Source: Candidatus Abyssobacteria bacterium SURF_5
GTDB taxonomy: Bacteria > Abyssobacteria > SURF-5
Assembly: GCA_003598085.1 (NCBI GenBank)
Contig: QZKU01000045.1
Location: forward strand, 1 to 64,000
Direction of reading: 5' to 3'
DNA length: 64,000 nucleotides
The position numbers and the translations under genes are program-made. The stretch's first letter is position 1, and each line of letters opens with the position of its first letter. Of the stretch, positions 18,724-34,483 are shown in pieces. The notes under the pieces were generated by a model. It was not told where the DNA came from. It did no database searches and saw only the letters and a program-made list of their open reading frames with translations.

Positions 18724-19836
18724 ATGCTTGGCAAAAACGATCTTCATCTGGAGTTGCTTGAGGTTGCCGAGCGCTTGGAACAACTAGCTCAGGAAGGTCA
18801 ACTGCCGGATGTAAAGACACCGTTAGAAGAATTGGAAGGAGCAGCAAATACAGTTGGTAAAGCTTGGAGCGGTTCATGGATCGGATATCAATCGCGTATT
18901 TACTACTCCTACTTCAAGCCTCCGCCACCGGGGGACCATTTTAATTCATGGGCGGGAAGGGCTGATACCGACAATTGGAAAGAAGTCGATAATGAAAAGG
19001 TACAAGAGCGAATTTACGAAAAGGCTGGTAATCCAGACCTTCAGAAGGCCGAAAGAGTTGCAGAAAGGGCTAGAAAGGCCTTTGAAAGCGATAAGCTTGA
19101 AGTCATGTCACTTTTGAATCATGCATTACTGGAGCAAGAGGATTCTTTTCTTGCTCAACTGAAAGATCGAGTTGAAAAAACAAATATCACTTCAAGAATG
19201 GAATTCATTCACGCGCTTCAACCCTCTAAATTTTCTACGCTTGATGTAGTTGCAGGACAACAGGGCATTCAAATTCCTCCTCATTTATCTATACTGTCTT
19301 TAGTTTACTACTTGCGCAATACGATAGAATCATGTGCGAAATTAGGACAATTTGCGCGGAAGGCCGGGTCGCATCTGGCACGGCTACAGCGGCAAACCCG
19401 TCGCTCGCTCGAAATAGGCACCAACGTTTTCATTGGTCATGGTCGTTCTCCGGTCTGGAGGGAGTTAAAGGATTTCGTCCAGGACCGCCTCCACCTCCCT
19501 TGGGATGAGTTCAACCGCATTCCAGTTGCTGGAGTAACCAATGTGGCTCGCCTGTCCGAATTGCTTCAATCGGCGGCAATGGCATTCCTGGTTATGACGG
19601 GTGAGGATGAGCAAGCTGATGGTACTATGAACGCACGGATGAATGTAATTCATGAAGCAGGATTGTTTCAGGGCCGTCTGGGTTTTAACCGGGCAATCAT
19701 CTTACTGGAGGAGGGTTGTGAAGGATTCAGCAACATAGAAGGGCTGGGACAGATACCCTTCCCGAAGGGGAATATCACTGCGGCCTTTGAAAAAGTGCGA
19801 GAAGTCCTCGAAAGGGAAGGATTAATTGTGTCATGA
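18724..19836 (+). CDS. TIR-like domain protein (CAP12/Pycsar-type), probable defence effector
   Basis: 370 residues, good AAAGGAG 5 bases before ATG. The C-terminal ~138 residues match the TIR-like nucleotide-binding domain (PF10137 type): VFIGHGR (235-241), a helix, AMAFLVMTGEDE, then MNVIHEAGLFQGRLGFNRAIILLEEG with E311 at the expected catalytic glutamate, and a final LGQIPFPKGNI. Such domains cleave NAD+ or sense nucleotides in anti-phage systems. The N-terminal ~230 residues have a W(S)GSWIGYQSRIYYSYFKPPPPG motif (about 47-72) and a helical middle; this part is of unknown function and may be the sensor. No cyclase is nearby, so I do not call it CBASS or Pycsar. It is 39 bases from the next gene, so the two form an operon. 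Confidence 0.8.
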   Translation: MLGKNDLHLELLEVAERLEQLAQEGQLPDVKTPLEELEGAANTVGKAWSGSWIGYQSRIYYSYFKPPPPGDHFNSWAGRADTDNWKEVDNEKVQERIYEKAGNPDLQKAERVAERARKAFESDKLEVMSLLNHALLEQEDSFLAQLKDRVEKTNITSRMEFIHALQPSKFSTLDVVAGQQGIQIPPHLSILSLVYYLRNTIESCAKLGQFARKAGSHLARLQRQTRRSLEIGTNVFIGHGRSPVWRELKDFVQDRLHLPWDEFNRIPVAGVTNVARLSELLQSAAMAFLVMTGEDEQADGTMNARMNVIHEAGLFQGRLGFNRAIILLEEGCEGFSNIEGLGQIPFPKGNITAAFEKVREVLEREGLIVS

Positions 19837-20767: not shown

Positions 20768-23296
20768 TCAGCCTCTCTTTCGTCTCGCTGGAATTTCAAT
20801 AGTGACCGGTAGCCCAATCTGAACCGCGACGGGTGTGTAAATATCAATATCCTCTTGCGGGGTATAGATAGACACAATCAAGGTGTAACGAGTCCGCCTG
20901 CTCCACCTGTTCAAATGATGCCGTTCCCGCCACCATCCTACAGACGGATAAACAGCGATTAGATTTGATCCGGCTAAATCCGCGGCTCTTCCGTGCCAGA
21001 TATCGGAGTGAATTGAACCTACATTTCTTGCCGCTCCAATGAGCCAATTTCCCCCAATACCTTCCGTGCCAGGATGCTCGCCATCGTCGCGAGCTTGTTC
21101 ATTCACTCGCTGAACAAATTCGCTTTCTGATTCCCCAGGTCCATTCACCTCAAAGCGAAGTCCATGTGAGGCATATCTATATCGATCTTCCCACCCCACC
21201 TCACCTGGACTGGGCTCAATGAAATATGAGAGAGTTATCCGCATCGTAACCTGCATTGCCCCAAGTTCCGTGAGAGTATCCTTGGGCCAAGGAAGGTTGT
21301 AGAGATGCATCTCTCGGGATATGTAGCGGCTTGCTAATTTCCTCGTACCATCACGCCCTATGGATTCCTGAATCTTCTTCTCAAAGGGTGTCAATTCTGC
21401 CTGTGAAATCAAAGTCAAAGAATTAGATAAACAATACAAAGCATCATTTAGCTTGGGTACACCATACCCACAAATTCGCAGGAGTCTTGCGTAATCACTC
21501 TTTGATCCAGCTCCGAGGAACTGCCGCTTAAGAGTGCCTGTCCAACCTGCCGAATGAACAATCAGAGCGCGAATGGTTTCTGGCCAAGCATCCGGATATT
21601 GAGCCTGAATTTGTGCAGCCATCCATGCAGCTTGTGCGCAAGCAGCGCTCGTAGCGCAAAAAGTAGCGAATTGGGCTTCTTGTGGCTTGTAATACGTTGA
21701 AAATAGTTGCAGATCATCCGGACCCATTGCGGAACCATCCGGGCTGCGCGCAACGTTCCCTCCTTCAAAAACAACCTCAGGTTTTATTGGCCATTTTCGA
21801 CTAGGCCATGCGGTCGAAGTAGTACTATAAGGAGATAGTCCTCCAGATGGTGCAATTGGCTTGTAGCCTTTATATGTAGGATCACTGATCCATATCTTTT
21901 CAGTAAACGCTCCAATAGTCAAGGCGTTCCATGCCTGCCCTGGATCATGGACCTCATTTGACAGATTCGCGTCGGAATAGTTTCGCCAATCATCGGAAGT
22001 GCTAACGTTTCCGGCGCTGATTAAGATAAGACGTCGAGTATCATCTTCGTATCCAGAGGCTATCTCGTCCAATTTGGCTGACCAAGAAGATGGCTTGCCC
22101 TGGTCACGGGTTTGCTCGGAGGTGACAGCAATACACCCGATGCGCTTTCGAGTTGGCGCTTGAATCTCTGCAAGACTTATCCCCTGGGCCGTAAAATATC
22201 CCCATAACTCCTTGGCATTCCTGTCAGGCGGTGGTGGCAGTATTTTTGCCGACTCTATGCAATGGGTGATGTTCACGGGAACATCGTGATCAAGAAGAAG
22301 CGACAAATCACCATACGCAGCAGTTCCCGCCATAAGAGTTCCATGACCATCATCATCATTTGTGCCCCAATGTCCACGAACAGCGTGAAGGTCGTCGGGG
22401 TTGAGAACCGGCTGAATCAGCAAGTGCCCATTATTCACACCTGTATCAAGAATACAGACAGCCACATCTGAGTCTCTGTCAACAATTGTACGCGCCAACA
22501 GTCTTTGCACCAACACCAACTGATCGCGGTTATCCATCTGGACGTAAAAAGAAGCTATCTTCTTGGCCCCCCTAAATTCCGCAATGTCGTCCGAGCATTC
22601 AACTAATTGTTTCAGTTGGCTGCGATTCGCCCGAATAAGCATAACTGTTCTCTCTGGAAACTTAAGAATACCTTCTTTCAATTCGCACTTCACACTTCTC
22701 AACAACGGCTCAAAATGAGAGACAACTTGATCTTGGTCGCTGCTCAGCCAGACCTCGACCCAATCGGGGGAATTACCCGGTATAAGAGATCGCTCCTCTG
22801 GACGCCAGAAAGATTCCAAGACGGCAAGGCGAATGTCGTCAATGCTATTCACCAGATTATAATTTTTTGGTCTCTTGCTGCGCTCGTTAATCTCAGTCGC
22901 ATATGCTCTAATTTTACTTAGGAAGTAGCGGCGCTTGTTATTTGGAACGTAGACCGTTGCCAGAGTCCGCTCCAGACCTTGCTCGTCTTGCTTTCGGACA
23001 TTCTGGAGACGAATTCCAGACCGTAACACATCAAGGCTCTGGACAATCAAGTCGAAACCTGGTGTACTTTGAAATTCAATGTATGTACCTTGGCGTTCCA
23101 CGTAAACGGCTGTTCGACGTTGACGTTGGTCAGCTTCAGCCCAAGTCTCATTGAGGCGCTCCTGCAGATGAGCGCTATGCTGTTCTCGGTTTCGTGGTGG
23201 AATCTTTGGAGAGCGGCCCCCTTTATTTGGGCTAGTAAATCCTTGTGTGTGGGTTGGCCCTGCCAAGAATATGTGCCTGTATCGCTCACCAGCCAT
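20768..23296 (-). CDS. ietS: Subtilisin-like serine protease of an IetAS-type system
   Basis: 842 residues, no signal peptide, so cytoplasmic. A ~270-residue N-terminal region of unknown role precedes an S8 peptidase domain with all catalytic elements visible: Asp284 (VCILDTGVN), His318 (DDDGHGTLMAG), oxyanion Asn430 (ISAGN) and Ser550 (CATSAACAQAA). The Ser motif has ATS-AA in place of the usual GTSMA/GTSFA. The C-terminal ~200 residues are beta-rich. The AAA ATPase gene ends 6 bases upstream on the same strand. An AAA ATPase next to a cytoplasmic subtilase is the published layout of IetAS, a plasmid stability/toxin-antitoxin-like locus also reported as an anti-phage system. Naming rests on domain pair and order, not on an alignment. 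Confidence 0.78.
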   Translation of the reverse strand: MAGERYRHIFLAGPTHTQGFTSPNKGGRSPKIPPRNREQHSAHLQERLNETWAEADQRQRRTAVYVERQGTYIEFQSTPGFDLIVQSLDVLRSGIRLQNVRKQDEQGLERTLATVYVPNNKRRYFLSKIRAYATEINERSKRPKNYNLVNSIDDIRLAVLESFWRPEERSLIPGNSPDWVEVWLSSDQDQVVSHFEPLLRSVKCELKEGILKFPERTVMLIRANRSQLKQLVECSDDIAEFRGAKKIASFYVQMDNRDQLVLVQRLLARTIVDRDSDVAVCILDTGVNNGHLLIQPVLNPDDLHAVRGHWGTNDDDGHGTLMAGTAAYGDLSLLLDHDVPVNITHCIESAKILPPPPDRNAKELWGYFTAQGISLAEIQAPTRKRIGCIAVTSEQTRDQGKPSSWSAKLDEIASGYEDDTRRLILISAGNVSTSDDWRNYSDANLSNEVHDPGQAWNALTIGAFTEKIWISDPTYKGYKPIAPSGGLSPYSTTSTAWPSRKWPIKPEVVFEGGNVARSPDGSAMGPDDLQLFSTYYKPQEAQFATFCATSAACAQAAWMAAQIQAQYPDAWPETIRALIVHSAGWTGTLKRQFLGAGSKSDYARLLRICGYGVPKLNDALYCLSNSLTLISQAELTPFEKKIQESIGRDGTRKLASRYISREMHLYNLPWPKDTLTELGAMQVTMRITLSYFIEPSPGEVGWEDRYRYASHGLRFEVNGPGESESEFVQRVNEQARDDGEHPGTEGIGGNWLIGAARNVGSIHSDIWHGRAADLAGSNLIAVYPSVGWWRERHHLNRWSRRTRYTLIVSIYTPQEDIDIYTPVAVQIGLPVTIEIPARRKRG

Positions 23297-23302
23297 TTGG
23301 CA

Positions 23303-24271
23303 TTAACCTTTGTGTTTTCCGTGCGAGCTTTGTCGTTCCTTCAACATTTGTAGTAGCAAGGTTGCCTTCACCTTTCCCAAATCAGCAAGGATAACTTCTT
23401 TAATGGCGTCTCGGCAGGCTTGGTCAATCTCTGCATGACTCAACCCTTCACTTTCGGCAAGCACGCTCTTCCACGCAAATCGTGAAGCCAAGAAACTTCC
23501 CAGTACGTTTTGCATCAAACGTCGCCGTTCGTTTTCTTTTGGCTGGTCATAGTAAAGAACGTCATCGAAACGTCGAAACAATGCTCGATCCAAGAGTTTT
23601 GGGCTATTCGTAGCGGTAATGATTAGGCTATCAGAAACATCCTGCTCGATGAATTGCAGAAATGAATTCAGAACACGGCGCATCTCTCCCACATCATTTT
23701 CTAAAGTCCTCTCACCGCCAATCGCATCGAATTCATCGAATAAGTACACCCCAAGGTCCCTCTGAACCAAGTCAAAAATCTGGCGGAGCTTTGCACTTGT
23801 TTCTCCCATAAATTTAGTTACCAGTCGATCCACCTGAATTGTATGGAGCGGCATGCGAAGCTCGTGTGCCAATACGCGCGCAGACATTGTCTTTCCCGTT
23901 CCTGGCGGGCCAACAAGCATAATTTTCCGGCGAGGCATTAGACCGTGCTCTTTGAGTTTCTGCCTTTGCCTGTACTCGTGGATTATTCGTTTTATTCGCT
24001 TCTGTAAGGCAAGGGGTAAAACCAAGGTCGCCTGAGAAACGTCCGGTTCCCCCGACAGGACAAGTCCCCGCAAATCTTGCGGAAACTTTAAAAGTGTGAG
24101 CCTATTTTCGCTGCGCGCTTCATCAACCATTTTGCGGATATCATGAGCCAGCGCGCCATGTCCCTGCTGAGCCTCGTATGCTGCAACCTGAAGTGCAATA
24201 GTGTAAAAACGTTCCGGGTCCTCACTGAAATGACACCTTATCAATGACTTGATCTGTTCCGCAGTTGCCAT
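23303..24271 (-). CDS. ietA: AAA+ ATPase of an IetAS-type system
   Basis: 322 residues. A helical N-terminal region (about 1-90) is followed by an AAA+ core: Walker A GPPGTGKT (121-128), pore-loop-like KFMGET (about 153), Walker B YLFDEFD (176-182), sensor 1 TATN (219-222) and arginine finger region LFRRFDD (about 231). A short C-terminal lid carries SEGLSHAEIDQACRDAIKE. It belongs to the family of single-AAA proteins that pair with subtilases. The likely role is ATP-driven control or substrate feeding of the protease encoded 6 bases downstream. It is transcribed inward from the right end of the island. The upstream 90 bases show no clear consensus promoter. Confidence 0.82.
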   Translation of the reverse strand: MATAEQIKSLIRCHFSEDPERFYTIALQVAAYEAQQGHGALAHDIRKMVDEARSENRLTLLKFPQDLRGLVLSGEPDVSQATLVLPLALQKRIKRIIHEYRQRQKLKEHGLMPRRKIMLVGPPGTGKTMSARVLAHELRMPLHTIQVDRLVTKFMGETSAKLRQIFDLVQRDLGVYLFDEFDAIGGERTLENDVGEMRRVLNSFLQFIEQDVSDSLIITATNSPKLLDRALFRRFDDVLYYDQPKENERRRLMQNVLGSFLASRFAWKSVLAESEGLSHAEIDQACRDAIKEVILADLGKVKATLLLQMLKERQSSHGKHKG

Positions 24272-30209: not shown

Positions 30210-30581
30210 TCAGGCGCCCAGGTATCGATCCACCAGCGCCTTCACGTCGTCCATACTCAGTGGCTTTATGAGATAATCAGTCGCTCCTGCTGCCATTGCC
30301 TTCTGTATATGCTTGTCGGAACCGACAGCCGAAACAAAGATGACCGGCGTCAATGAAGTTTCCCCGCGCGAGCGCAACGACTTGCAGATCTCATATCCAT
30401 CCATATCCGGCAACATGACATCAAGCAGTATCAAATCCGGCTTATGGTCCTTCGCCCTCGCAAGCGCCACTTTCCCCGTCAACGCGGTAAATACTTCCAA
30501 CCCCAGTTTCGCCAGGGTCACCTGAAGGAATTCCCGGAAAGAAGCCTGATCCTCGACCACCAGCACTTTCTTCTGCGGCAT
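30210..30581 (-). CDS. Single-domain response regulator (CheY-like receiver)
   Basis: 123 residues from ATG 30581, which has GGAGG at 7 bases; longer forms lack a ribosome site. A stand-alone receiver: acidic pocket E10-D11, phospho-acceptor Asp54 (LILLDVMLPDMDG), Ser84 in the switch position and Lys106 in LIKPL. There is no output domain, so it must act through protein contacts. It overlaps into the comEC transcript (10-base gap). The nearest kinase is the PAS/GAF histidine kinase at 36152-38998, but they are 5.5 kb apart; the pairing is not demonstrated. Confidence 0.92.
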   Translation of the reverse strand: MPQKKVLVVEDQASFREFLQVTLAKLGLEVFTALTGKVALARAKDHKPDLILLDVMLPDMDGYEICKSLRSRGETSLTPVIFVSAVGSDKHIQKAMAAGATDYLIKPLSMDDVKALVDRYLGA

Positions 30582-30945
30582 ATCAAACCTCCACCCAACG
30601 CCCTCATGGCTAAGCGCGTCGGGCATATGCTTCGTAGACGGCACTAGATTTGTATCACATGGCCGCCCTATTTTCAAGAAAAAAGCCCTTATTGAAAAAA
30701 CCCACTATACAAACGCATGAACTTCTTTTGGTCGTTTTATTACAAATCTGTCATTGTCGCTCCGGCAGAAATTTTCCTCGACACCACGCTCTACTCGCTT
30801 CTTCAGCATTTGAATTTCTAACCCTTCAAAACCTCTTTCTCTGTCGTGATCTGCAAAATATTGTATTCTAAGCTCTATCGTTCCAAGGCCTTATGAATCA
30901 TTCGACCTGTAATCCAAAATCCAAAATCTAAAATCCAAAATCTCG
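30582..30945. other. Intergenic region with AATCCAAAATC repeats
   Basis: 364 bases, no gene. The end near the ABC permease stop holds four imperfect AATCCAAAATC/T units (about 30911-30943) of the dispersed type also found at 17035 and 43070. Confidence 0.4.
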
Positions 30946-31818
30946 CTACATCTTCATTCGCGGGTCCAGATAATCCCTCAGCGAGTCCCCGAGCAGGTTC
31001 ATCGCCATGATAGTAAGAGCAAGCGCGATGCCAGGGAAAACGCTGATCCAGGGAGCCACGTGCAAAAAATTCCGGCCATTACTGATCATCGCGCCCCACG
31101 ACGCTGCCGGAGGTTGAACGCCCAGGCCCAGAAAGCTTAAAGCGGCCTCTCCAAGCATGAACCCGCCCAGCCGGAGGCTTACGGCAACGATCAACAGCGG
31201 GATGCAGTTGGGCAGCGCGTGCCCCAGGATCAAACGAGGCCCGGAACATCCCGTCGCCAGCGCCGCTACATAAAATTCACTCTGTTTAATGGATAAGAAA
31301 ATGCTTCGGCTCAATCGCGCAAACGTGGGCCAGCCTACGAGCGAGAGAGCAACGAACACCGAAACCATTCCGGGGGGAATAATGACGCTTATTGCGATCG
31401 CAAGCAGAAGGCTCGGAAAGGCAAGCGCAATATCAATTATACTTACCGCGAAAGAATCTACCGGCCCTCCCGCAAATCCCGCAATCAGCCCGATGACCGA
31501 TCCCAGCAACAGCGAAATGATTGCTGCTGCGACGGCGATTCCGAGGGAAATACGGGCGCCCGTGAGCGTGCGCGCCAGGATGTCGCGCCCCTGATTGTCC
31601 GTCCCGAGCGGATGTGACATCGAGGGCGACTGCAGCGCTTCATCCAGATCTATATCGTTCGGTTGATATCTCCAGACAAGCGGCCCGATTATCGCCGCCG
31701 TCACAATAACAACCAAAAGAATTCCCGCAATCGCGGCAAATTTGTCGCGCCGGAAAAACGCGCGAACAGATCTGATAAGTGACGATCTCTCTGAAGGCAT
31801 TATCAGGACGTTCTGCAC
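30946..31818 (-). CDS. Peptide/nickel-type ABC transporter permease (DppC-like)
   Basis: 290 residues from GTG 31818, which has AAAGGGG 8 bases before; ATG 31800 is an alternative. It is an OppC/DppC family membrane protein: an N-terminal membrane segment (about 18-40), the DLDEALQSPSMSHPLGTDNQGRDILAR signature, five further membrane segments, and the EAA loop region (EFYVAALATGCSGPRLILGHALPN) that docks the ATPase. It ends in MNLLGDSLRDYLDPR, typical of the family. It is the second permease of the transporter whose other permease is fused to the binding protein just upstream (49-base gap). No ATP-binding subunit is encoded in this window. Confidence 0.9.
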   Translation of the reverse strand: MQNVLIMPSERSSLIRSVRAFFRRDKFAAIAGILLVVIVTAAIIGPLVWRYQPNDIDLDEALQSPSMSHPLGTDNQGRDILARTLTGARISLGIAVAAAIISLLLGSVIGLIAGFAGGPVDSFAVSIIDIALAFPSLLLAIAISVIIPPGMVSVFVALSLVGWPTFARLSRSIFLSIKQSEFYVAALATGCSGPRLILGHALPNCIPLLIVAVSLRLGGFMLGEAALSFLGLGVQPPAASWGAMISNGRNFLHVAPWISVFPGIALALTIMAMNLLGDSLRDYLDPRMKM

Positions 31819-31867: not shown

Positions 31868-34483
31868 TCATTTTTCCTTCTGCAGCTCAATCCGCGGATC
31901 GATTGCCGCATAGAGCAAATCGACCAGTAAATTTACGGCGACAAAAACAGCGGCTCCGAAAAGCACCGTTCCCAGAATTACCGGATAATCGTGCTTCAGA
32001 ATACCCGTCATCGCATACCGTCCAATGCCATCCCACCCGAAAATTGTTTCCGTCAGAACCGATCCGTTCAGGTAGCTGCCCATATCGATCCCTATCAGAG
32101 TCGTGATCGGAATGAGCGCATTGCGCAACGCATGCTTAATTGCCGCCGTCAACGGAGTTAATCCTTTCGCCCTGGCCGTCGTTATGAACGGCTGAGAGAG
32201 AATCTCCAGCATGCTCGAGCGCGTCACTCTGGCAATAAAGGCCGCCGAATTTGTTCCAAGCGCAATTGCGGGCAACACAAGATACGCAAGCTCTCCCCGG
32301 CCCATACCCGACGGCGGCAACCAGTTCAACGTGTACGCGAATACGAATACCAGTAACAGCGCGAGCCAGAAAACAGGCGTCGAAATCCCCGCTACCGAGA
32401 TCATCCCCAATAATTTGTCGGTCACGGTATTGTGCTTGAGAGCCGAAACGACCCCAAGTGTCACGCCGAACAGGATCGAGATCGTTATGGCCGCGCCCGC
32501 CAGCCGCAGCGTATTCGGAAATTTTTCCATGAGACTCCTGGCGACCGGCCTCTTCGTGTAATACGAGCGGCCCAGTTCGCCCTTGCAGATGAGTCTGAGG
32601 TAATTTGCAAACTGCGCCGCCAGCGGATCATCCAGCCGCAGCTCGCGCCTCAACTGCTCGATCGTCTGCGGATCGGCCCGCTCGCCCACCAGCGCAAGCG
32701 CGGGATCGCCCGGCGCCATTTTTAAAATCATGAATACAATCAGCGCCACACCGATCAAAGTCGGTACCGCAATCAGCAGTCTCCGCGCGGCGTAGGGGAG
32801 CAGCGATGGCCTCACCAGGGGATATCCGATTCCAAAAGCAAAAATACCGGCGATTGGCGCCAGAAAAAGGAGCCCCGCCAGACCGGGTCGGCCATTATTG
32901 TCCTCGGCGCCCGCCACCTCTACCCCGGTTCCTTTGTCCGCATGAGGAATAGCTGCCGGCTCGAAACCCTTCACCCACGGCTGCGCCAGAAAATGATCCG
33001 TCCGGTGCCACAGAAAAACCCACGGCGCCTCGTCGATCACTACAGTCTCGGCCTGCGCATATAGCGCCGCGCGCTTCCGCTCGTCCGGCTCACGCTGGGC
33101 TCTCTCTATGAGCGAATCAAAAACCGGATTGCGGTAAAATGAGCGGTTTCCCGAAGCGCCCCAGTTGGAGGAATGAAATACCGGATACAGAAAATTCTCC
33201 GCATCCGGATAATCTGCATACCACGAGAGCAGAAACATGTCCGCAAGGCCGTCGTTCACCGCCTGCTTGTATGCCGTCCATTCCAATTGAACGATCTCAA
33301 CGTCAACCCCTGCTCTCCTCAAGTAATACTGAATCGCCTCCGCGACCTCCAGCGTGCGCTGATCGGCGCTCTGATACAGTTTCAGTGGGCGCTGAGGCCG
33401 CCTCTCCGATGATAACTCGGCGCGCGCAGTGACCGGATCATATTTGAGCGCACTATCCCTGTGGCTGTGCCCGGGCAACTCCGGCGGAATCGGGCCCCCC
33501 GCCACCTGTGCGCGCCCCTGGAGGATAACCTCGACAATTTTTTGCCGGTCGATCGCCTGTGAGAGCGCCCGGCGAAACGACGCATCGTTCATCGGCGGCT
33601 TCTGGCAGTTAAAGCCGAGATAGTACGTGTTCAGCCCGCCGCGCACCTTCATCTGTTTCTGACGGGCGCGATCGGCCGATATTCGCGCGTATTCGGCCGC
33701 CGGGATCTCAAGAATATCCAGATTGCCCGCCTCGAATTCGGCCACTCGCGTGAAATCTTCCGGAATAACCCTGTATTCCATTTCATCCACGCGCGCGTGT
33801 TCGGCGTAGTAAGCATCATTGCGCGCGAGCGTCAAGCGCTCGTCGTGACGCCACTCCTTCAGAATGAACGGGCCCGTGCCTGCCGCATGATCCGAAAAAT
33901 CGTTCCCCCATCGCTCGACCTCTTCACGCGGCACAACATATGCATTTGGCATTGCCAGAAATTGGAGGAATACGGCAAGCGGACGGTCGAGTTCGATCCG
34001 AATGGTATAATCGTCGACCACCTGCAGGCCGGATACTTCGCCGGCATCGCCTTCCATGAATGTGCGCGCGCCCCGTATCGGATCGAACAACCATTTCCTC
34101 CTCGATCCCGAGTCCGGCGACAACACGCGCTCGAATGAATACTTGACGTCGTGTGCGGTAAGACGGCGTCCATTATGAAAGAAGATGTCGCGGCGGAGCG
34201 TAAAGATATATGTTGTCCCTGCGTCGGAAATATCCCACCCCGAGGCGATATCCGGCGCCACGCTCATGCGCTCGTCAAACCTAACCAGCCCATTGTAAAG
34301 CTTTGCCGCAACCGATCCGCCAGTCACATCGACGATCATGGCCGGATCGAGACTGGTCGGGTCCTGCGGAAGCGCCATCGCCAGGCGCCTCACATTCTTG
34401 TCCTGCTCTTTGGAACATGAAGCGGAGATGAAAACAACCAAGAAGAGAAGAAGGAGGAAGGCTGTCGCACAATTTTTTTTCAT
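31868..34483 (-). CDS. Fused ABC solute-binding lipoprotein and permease (DppA-DppB fusion)
   Basis: 871 residues. ATG 34483 overlaps the upstream stop (ATGA). Residues 1-25 are a signal/lipoprotein-like leader (FISASC). About 30-530 is a family 5 (peptide/nickel/oligopeptide) binding protein: LAMALPQDPTSLDPA, YIFTLRRDIFFHNGRRLTAHDV, YNPVF-like C-terminal lobe. A membrane segment at about 545-570 then leads into a complete DppB permease (about 575-871): YAARRLLIAVPTLIGVALIVF, LRLDDPLAAQFANYL, TARAKGLTPLTAAIKHALRNA, DPRIEL end. These two parts are normally separate genes. The linker membrane helix brings the chain back to the cytoplasm, so the topology works. Substrate unknown; a gamma-glutamyl hydrolase-type gene is coupled upstream. 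Confidence 0.88.
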   Translation of the reverse strand: MKKNCATAFLLLLFLVVFISASCSKEQDKNVRRLAMALPQDPTSLDPAMIVDVTGGSVAAKLYNGLVRFDERMSVAPDIASGWDISDAGTTYIFTLRRDIFFHNGRRLTAHDVKYSFERVLSPDSGSRRKWLFDPIRGARTFMEGDAGEVSGLQVVDDYTIRIELDRPLAVFLQFLAMPNAYVVPREEVERWGNDFSDHAAGTGPFILKEWRHDERLTLARNDAYYAEHARVDEMEYRVIPEDFTRVAEFEAGNLDILEIPAAEYARISADRARQKQMKVRGGLNTYYLGFNCQKPPMNDASFRRALSQAIDRQKIVEVILQGRAQVAGGPIPPELPGHSHRDSALKYDPVTARAELSSERRPQRPLKLYQSADQRTLEVAEAIQYYLRRAGVDVEIVQLEWTAYKQAVNDGLADMFLLSWYADYPDAENFLYPVFHSSNWGASGNRSFYRNPVFDSLIERAQREPDERKRAALYAQAETVVIDEAPWVFLWHRTDHFLAQPWVKGFEPAAIPHADKGTGVEVAGAEDNNGRPGLAGLLFLAPIAGIFAFGIGYPLVRPSLLPYAARRLLIAVPTLIGVALIVFMILKMAPGDPALALVGERADPQTIEQLRRELRLDDPLAAQFANYLRLICKGELGRSYYTKRPVARSLMEKFPNTLRLAGAAITISILFGVTLGVVSALKHNTVTDKLLGMISVAGISTPVFWLALLLVFVFAYTLNWLPPSGMGRGELAYLVLPAIALGTNSAAFIARVTRSSMLEILSQPFITTARAKGLTPLTAAIKHALRNALIPITTLIGIDMGSYLNGSVLTETIFGWDGIGRYAMTGILKHDYPVILGTVLFGAAVFVAVNLLVDLLYAAIDPRIELQKEK

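Follow-up and report, generated by a model that had tools for sequence, protein, structure and literature searches.

In importers of the Opp/Dpp/Nik class, D and F ATPases with oligo_HPY are usually encoded in the importer operon, although they are not strictly defining. The best described system close to the locus presented here is DppABCDF of E. coli (PDB 8z1v-8z1z; PMC12136057), whose five genes lie together and whose binding protein, DppA, is free in the periplasm. The scoop of DppB (E41, R42) enters the cleft of DppA, where its charged partners are R383, the carboxylate-binding arginine, and the peptide-anchoring D436 (PMC12136057). Covalent tethering of the binding domain to the membrane part of an ABC importer is known from other classes, as the original prediction had stated, namely from GlnPQ and OpuA (PMC8025302, PMC11065425) among the amino-acid and osmolyte importers. 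In these importers the permease is a homodimer, and therefore at least two tethered binding domains are present (two or four); GlnPQ carries two SBDs in tandem on its chain, and its tethering is considered to make delivery faster (PMC8025302). Free binding proteins, according to PMC9045158, are normally made in excess. Regarding energy supply, the multitask ATPases MsmX and MsmK energise importer operons that lack an ATPase of their own (PMC7658222).

The window (the whole stretch of 64,000 nucleotides that was analysed) comes from a member of the Abyssobacteria, a poorly known group of uncultured bacteria from the subsurface, which have been described in PMC6121073. It contains a gene that resembles the E. 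coli system in its solute-binding protein (SBP) family 5 domain (28% identity to DppA), in its DppB fold (41% identity, Z 29.2), in the glutamate and arginine of the scoop and in having a separate DppC. In contrast to E. coli, SBP and DppB form one chain with an extra helix, the locus has no ATPase and R383 of DppA is missing. Compared with GlnPQ and OpuA, the SBP and permease families are different (PF00496 and the DppB family) and, since DppC is separate, the gene content predicts a single binding domain per transporter. With MsmX and MsmK the locus shares the operon without its own ATPase; however, those serve sugar importers and are homodimeric, whereas sharing of an OppD/OppF pair is proposed here from genome content. 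No report of a fusion between SBP family 5 and a permease was found in the literature searched, which did not extend to most subscription papers or to domain-architecture databases, and this negative result is consequently weak evidence of novelty. This is a genuine fusion whose tethered design is known in other importers and, as far as found, is new for peptide importers.

One uninterrupted gene for a binding protein and a permease

The original prediction placed a family 5 binding protein and a DppB permease in a single chain of 871 residues, and this is borne out by the open frame and the Pfam domains (Table 1). The minus-strand frame is translated through all 871 codons without a stop or a frameshift. 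ATG 34483 is the best candidate for the start and overlaps by 4 bases with the stop of the upstream peptidase C26 gene; another in-frame ATG (34573) lies further upstream, inside that gene. Pfam located SBP_bac_5 (PF00496) at residues 75-442 (E 8e-94), BPD_transp_1_N (PF19300) at 564-662 (E 5e-14) and BPD_transp_1 (PF00528) at 673-866 (E 2e-39). In NCBIfam, DppA/OppA-like models cover residues from about 40 to 508 and Opp2B/NikB/GsiC-like models cover 562-870, all of these matches being under the equivalog cut-offs. The hydropathy profile showed the signal (1-23), a segment between the two domains (531-558) and then the segments of DppB. The lipid-anchor signal is weak in the window genome, with a serine at position -3.

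Table 1. Features of the fusion locus in the window (G001 and G002 are the other two genomes sampled in the phylum).
Feature	Position	Strand	Basis
Fused gene of 871 aa: signal of lipoprotein type, SBP family 5, linker helix, DppB permease	31868..34483	-	Open frame and Pfam; kept in G001 and G002
Signal sequence, residues 1-23, ending in a lipobox-like Cys23	34415..34483	-	Hydropathy; Cys23 invariant in 3/3 fusions
Solute-binding domain, residues ~30-524	32912..34396	-	Pfam; AlphaFold model; alignment
Insert, residues 525-560, with predicted membrane helix 535-557; not in unfused relatives	32804..32911	-	Alignment, C-termini of relatives, hydropathy, fragment model
DppB permease, residues 561-871; scoop E601/R602; EAA loop FITTARAKGL	31871..32803	-	Pfam; fragment model against 8z1y_A
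DppC-type permease, separate partner subunit	30946..31797	-	Pfam OppC_N and BPD_transp_1; Opp4C/Opp2C-like
Class I glutamine amidotransferase / peptidase C26	34480..35217	-	Pfam
Stand-alone response-regulator receiver domain, downstream of DppC	30210..30677	-	Pfam

A predicted additional helix at the junction

In the unfused relatives, the binding protein stops just after a DKGT-x-V/I-like motif, at a point that corresponds to about residue 524 in the fusion; the methionine at which DppB starts is aligned with residue 561. Hence, both proteins are intact and the insert has been added between them. Its 36 residues (525-560) are present in the fusions only and consist of a variable stretch and a hydrophobic segment. 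Variability within the fusion is highest at about 521-533 (23-31% identity), and the hydrophobic segment is retained in the three genomes despite a drift of its sequence to approximately 40% identity. Segment 531-558 reaches a Kyte-Doolittle peak of 2.16, is absent from every aligned unfused relative, and is followed by Arg558, Arg567 and Arg568, in agreement with the positive-inside rule. Binding proteins anchored at their C-terminus were also sought among the relatives as a step toward the fusion, and neither a hydrophobic tail nor a membrane anchor was found at the C-terminus of any of them.

For folding, the alignment included rows read through the stop between in-frame neighbours, which had no other use. 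The full-length AlphaFold model gave both domains with good confidence (mean pLDDT 85.5) and the linker 526-557 with a pLDDT below 50. When the fragment 505-871 was modelled, a 23-residue helix appeared at 535-557 (block means pLDDT 63, 67 and 74), followed by a break and by the first transmembrane helix of DppB from residue 559. DppB and OppB structures can be aligned only with the part of the fusion from about residue 561 onwards (residue 1-2 of their chains), which makes the preceding helix an extra one. Judging from the hydropathy and the moderate confidence of the fragment model, helix 535-557 may span the membrane. The topology would then be coherent, with the signal leading out, the helix leading in and the first DppB helix leading out again. 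The segment that had been proposed to return the chain to the cytoplasm exists, is specific to the fusions and is what such an out-to-in return would need. The related proposal, that the fusion is not merely a lost stop, agrees with the approximately 36 added coding residues, whose hydrophobic pattern is shared by the fusions and occurs in no relative.

Conservation and distribution of the fusion

The phylum was sampled with three genomes, one per genus: the window genome (G000), G001 and G002. The same fusion is present in 3/3, without stops, with 70% identity to the window copy and with a linker whose length varies by an indel of one residue only. A frameshift or misassembly, or absence from every relative, had been named in advance as what would speak against the fusion; the gene is uninterrupted and shared by both other genomes, so it is neither misassembled nor absent from relatives. 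Public MAG contigs with the fusion are those of Candidatus Abyssobacteria SURF_17 (QZKI01000097.1) and of NC_groundwater_1808 (JACRIR010000270.1), the latter filed as Poribacteria. Between G000 and G002, the codon differences at positions 1/2/3 are 109/85/296 in the SBP and 60/24/167 in DppB. Third positions are the most variable in all domains of the fusion, as expected of a translated protein under selection.

Outside the phylum, the two genes are separate in the close relatives that were read. When the junction region was scanned across GTDB, 80 loci were returned, with a fused frame only in the two Abyssobacteria loci, and across 386 genomes of the domain only the three Abyssobacteria cross the junction without a stop, among the matches listed. 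In the nearest phylum sampled (44 genomes), a locus of which matches that of Tritonobacter lacicola (Ca. Auribacterota), SBP and DppB are separate in all nine new loci read. At least 13 close relatives have both genes in the same frame with a single stop between them. The best unfused matches to the SBP half and to the DppB half share loci (e.g. L148, L076 and L079), which indicates that the two genes already formed a cognate pair when they were joined. As far as sampled, the sequences point to a fusion confined to one phylum, and other groups may have independent fusions.

Several further candidates were rejected. A second fusion in the window genome (contig C104) and fusions at several loci of other phyla have stops between the two halves in the DNA, and tblastn matches on plasmids of Rhizobium, Shinella and Fusobacterium, appearing as single or joined pieces, correspond to two genes each.

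In the binding domain of the G001 copy (L006), about 38 residues consisting of HSEPPPR/HSERSEES repeats are inserted after the residues aligned to position 345 of P0001, and the upstream part of this copy's frame also reads HSEPFAVILSKAKN, like a translated genomic repeat. In the closest Gemmatimonadota relatives (L064-L074, other loci), SBP and DppB are adjacent and a DppC was not recognised nearby; the gene that comes next in L069 is class A beta-lactamase-like.

Class, docking residues and substrate

By its domains, the fusion belongs with the Opp/Dpp/Nik importers, as it has an SBP family 5 domain, a DppB-type permease with the N-terminal domain and the scoop, and an adjoining DppC-type second permease. 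The D/F ATPases that are usual in the operon are lacking beside the fusion in the three genomes. They are also lacking from the loci of most relatives, and for this reason the locus is treated as a variant inside the class. The AlphaFold model of the binding domain matches the PDB structures of MppA, DppA and OppA, and the fragment model of the permease superposes on E. coli DppB (8z1y_A) with Z 29.2 and an rmsd of 2.2 over 301 residues.

In the alignment, E601 and R602 of the fusion correspond to E41 and R42 of DppB, and D424 to D436 of DppA. R383 is replaced by Q371, within a shortened loop, and the relatives lack this arginine too. The substrate may therefore not be a dipeptide. From these residues, the docking geometry is probably kept and the substrate is probably a different or longer one than the classical dipeptide. 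A peptide remains the presumed substrate, and the peptidase found directly upstream in 3/3 genomes (C26 in the window genome and G002, M20 in G001) is in keeping with peptide use.

Gene neighbourhood and ATPases

The open frame of the DppC-type gene extends to 31911, its probable start being at 31797, and the gene has no binding domain. A receiver domain is likewise found downstream of DppC in G001. Scans for promoters and terminators gave numbers of hits no better than chance. Elsewhere in the window, a subtilase (IetS-like, E 2e-26) adjoins an AAA ATPase (IetA-like, E 1e-72) at 20768-24271 (minus strand), a pair that resembles the IetAS anti-phage defence pair. Moreover, a protein with a C-terminal CAP12/Pycsar-type TIR domain (PF10137, E 2e-18) is encoded at 18724-19836 (plus strand), with no PADLOC matches among its flanking genes.

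In none of the three phylum genomes does an OppD/OppF-like gene lie close to the fusion. Each of them has exactly one oligo_HPY ATPase pair, located in a separate, complete and unfused operon (G000:C104, G001:C60 and G002:C130), and this motor is thus probably shared, as judged from genome content. At 77 of the 78 other scan loci there was no strong OppD/OppF match either (flanks of up to 6 kb, some contigs ending early); L120 has one weak match. All eight of the checked genomes of ATPase-less relatives have oligo_HPY ATPases elsewhere. Since most loci of the relatives lack the ATPase as well, its absence is a trait of the wider clade and not a consequence of the fusion. Sharing of an ATPase has a precedent among the sugar importers in MsmX (PMC7658222).

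In every Abyssobacteria genome, the one OppF-type ATPase has at its N-terminus a domain of roughly 150 residues, in which around four membrane helices are apparent (L043:8213-9703 in G000:C104, with equivalents in L060 and L061 that show 52-53% identity to the copy of the window genome). This domain has no Pfam family match, and only two weak, stop-containing matches were found elsewhere among 290 genomes.

Proposed mechanism and alternatives

Taken as a whole, the locus is best explained, with reasonable though not high confidence, as encoding an importer subunit that combines a tethered binding protein with one half of the permease, the ATPases acting in trans. The chain would be exported through its signal sequence and likely lipid-anchored too at Cys23, the binding domain would fold in the periplasm, and the chain would re-enter the membrane through the fusion-specific helix (approximately 535-557), leaving the rest as a normal DppB with a cytoplasmic N-terminus. 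The fusion and the separate DppC would form a 1:1 heterodimeric channel with exactly one binding domain, which would dock on its own permease by the usual scoop motif. ATP would be hydrolysed in trans, the most likely motor being the single OppD/OppF pair of another operon. The original expectation that two copies per transporter do not occur agrees with this gene content, DppC being separate and devoid of a binding domain.

An unlikely alternative is that the chain is made fused and then cut in the linker, giving a free or lipid-anchored binding protein and a DppB with an extra N-terminal helix. The variability of the stretch at 521-533 and its low predicted structure would suit such a cut; nevertheless, the fusion-specific helix is kept in three genera when relatives with separate genes manage without it, and no protease site was recognised. 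Slightly less likely still, the locus could be a peptide sensor and not an importer, with the tethered domain on an ATPase-less permease pair signalling through the adjacent receiver-domain protein. The operon without ATPase, the receiver-domain gene downstream in the window genome and in G001, and a PAS/GAF histidine kinase nearby in this window speak for it. However, the scoop and EAA-loop residues for transport coupling are intact, and the unfused relatives of other phyla are also without local ATPases and have D/F pairs elsewhere in their genomes.

The joining of two genes by a sequencing or assembly error is extremely improbable. A single base error could mimic a fusion, since only one stop separates the two in-frame genes in the close relatives counted above, but the same fusion occurs in three MAGs of different genera, and in all three the added coding residues share one hydrophobic pattern.

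Implications for peptide uptake

A broader reading, tentative and with somewhat less than an even chance of being right, is that peptide uptake in the Abyssobacteria was rebuilt on the basis of two unique fusions, SBP-helix-DppB and the membrane-anchored OppF, with one motor pair for both importers, the tethered importer being heterodimeric with exactly one tethered domain. The tether would fix the ratio of binding domain to transporter at 1:1. If this is true, such a heterodimer, with its single tethered domain, would offer a clean natural test of whether one docking site is enough for efficient import, and the cost of tethering could be asked too, given the excess of free binding proteins mentioned above. 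Furthermore, the fusion represents a topologically forced route of gene fusion, in which the genes often share a frame and are parted by a single stop, yet joining them needs a new membrane helix.
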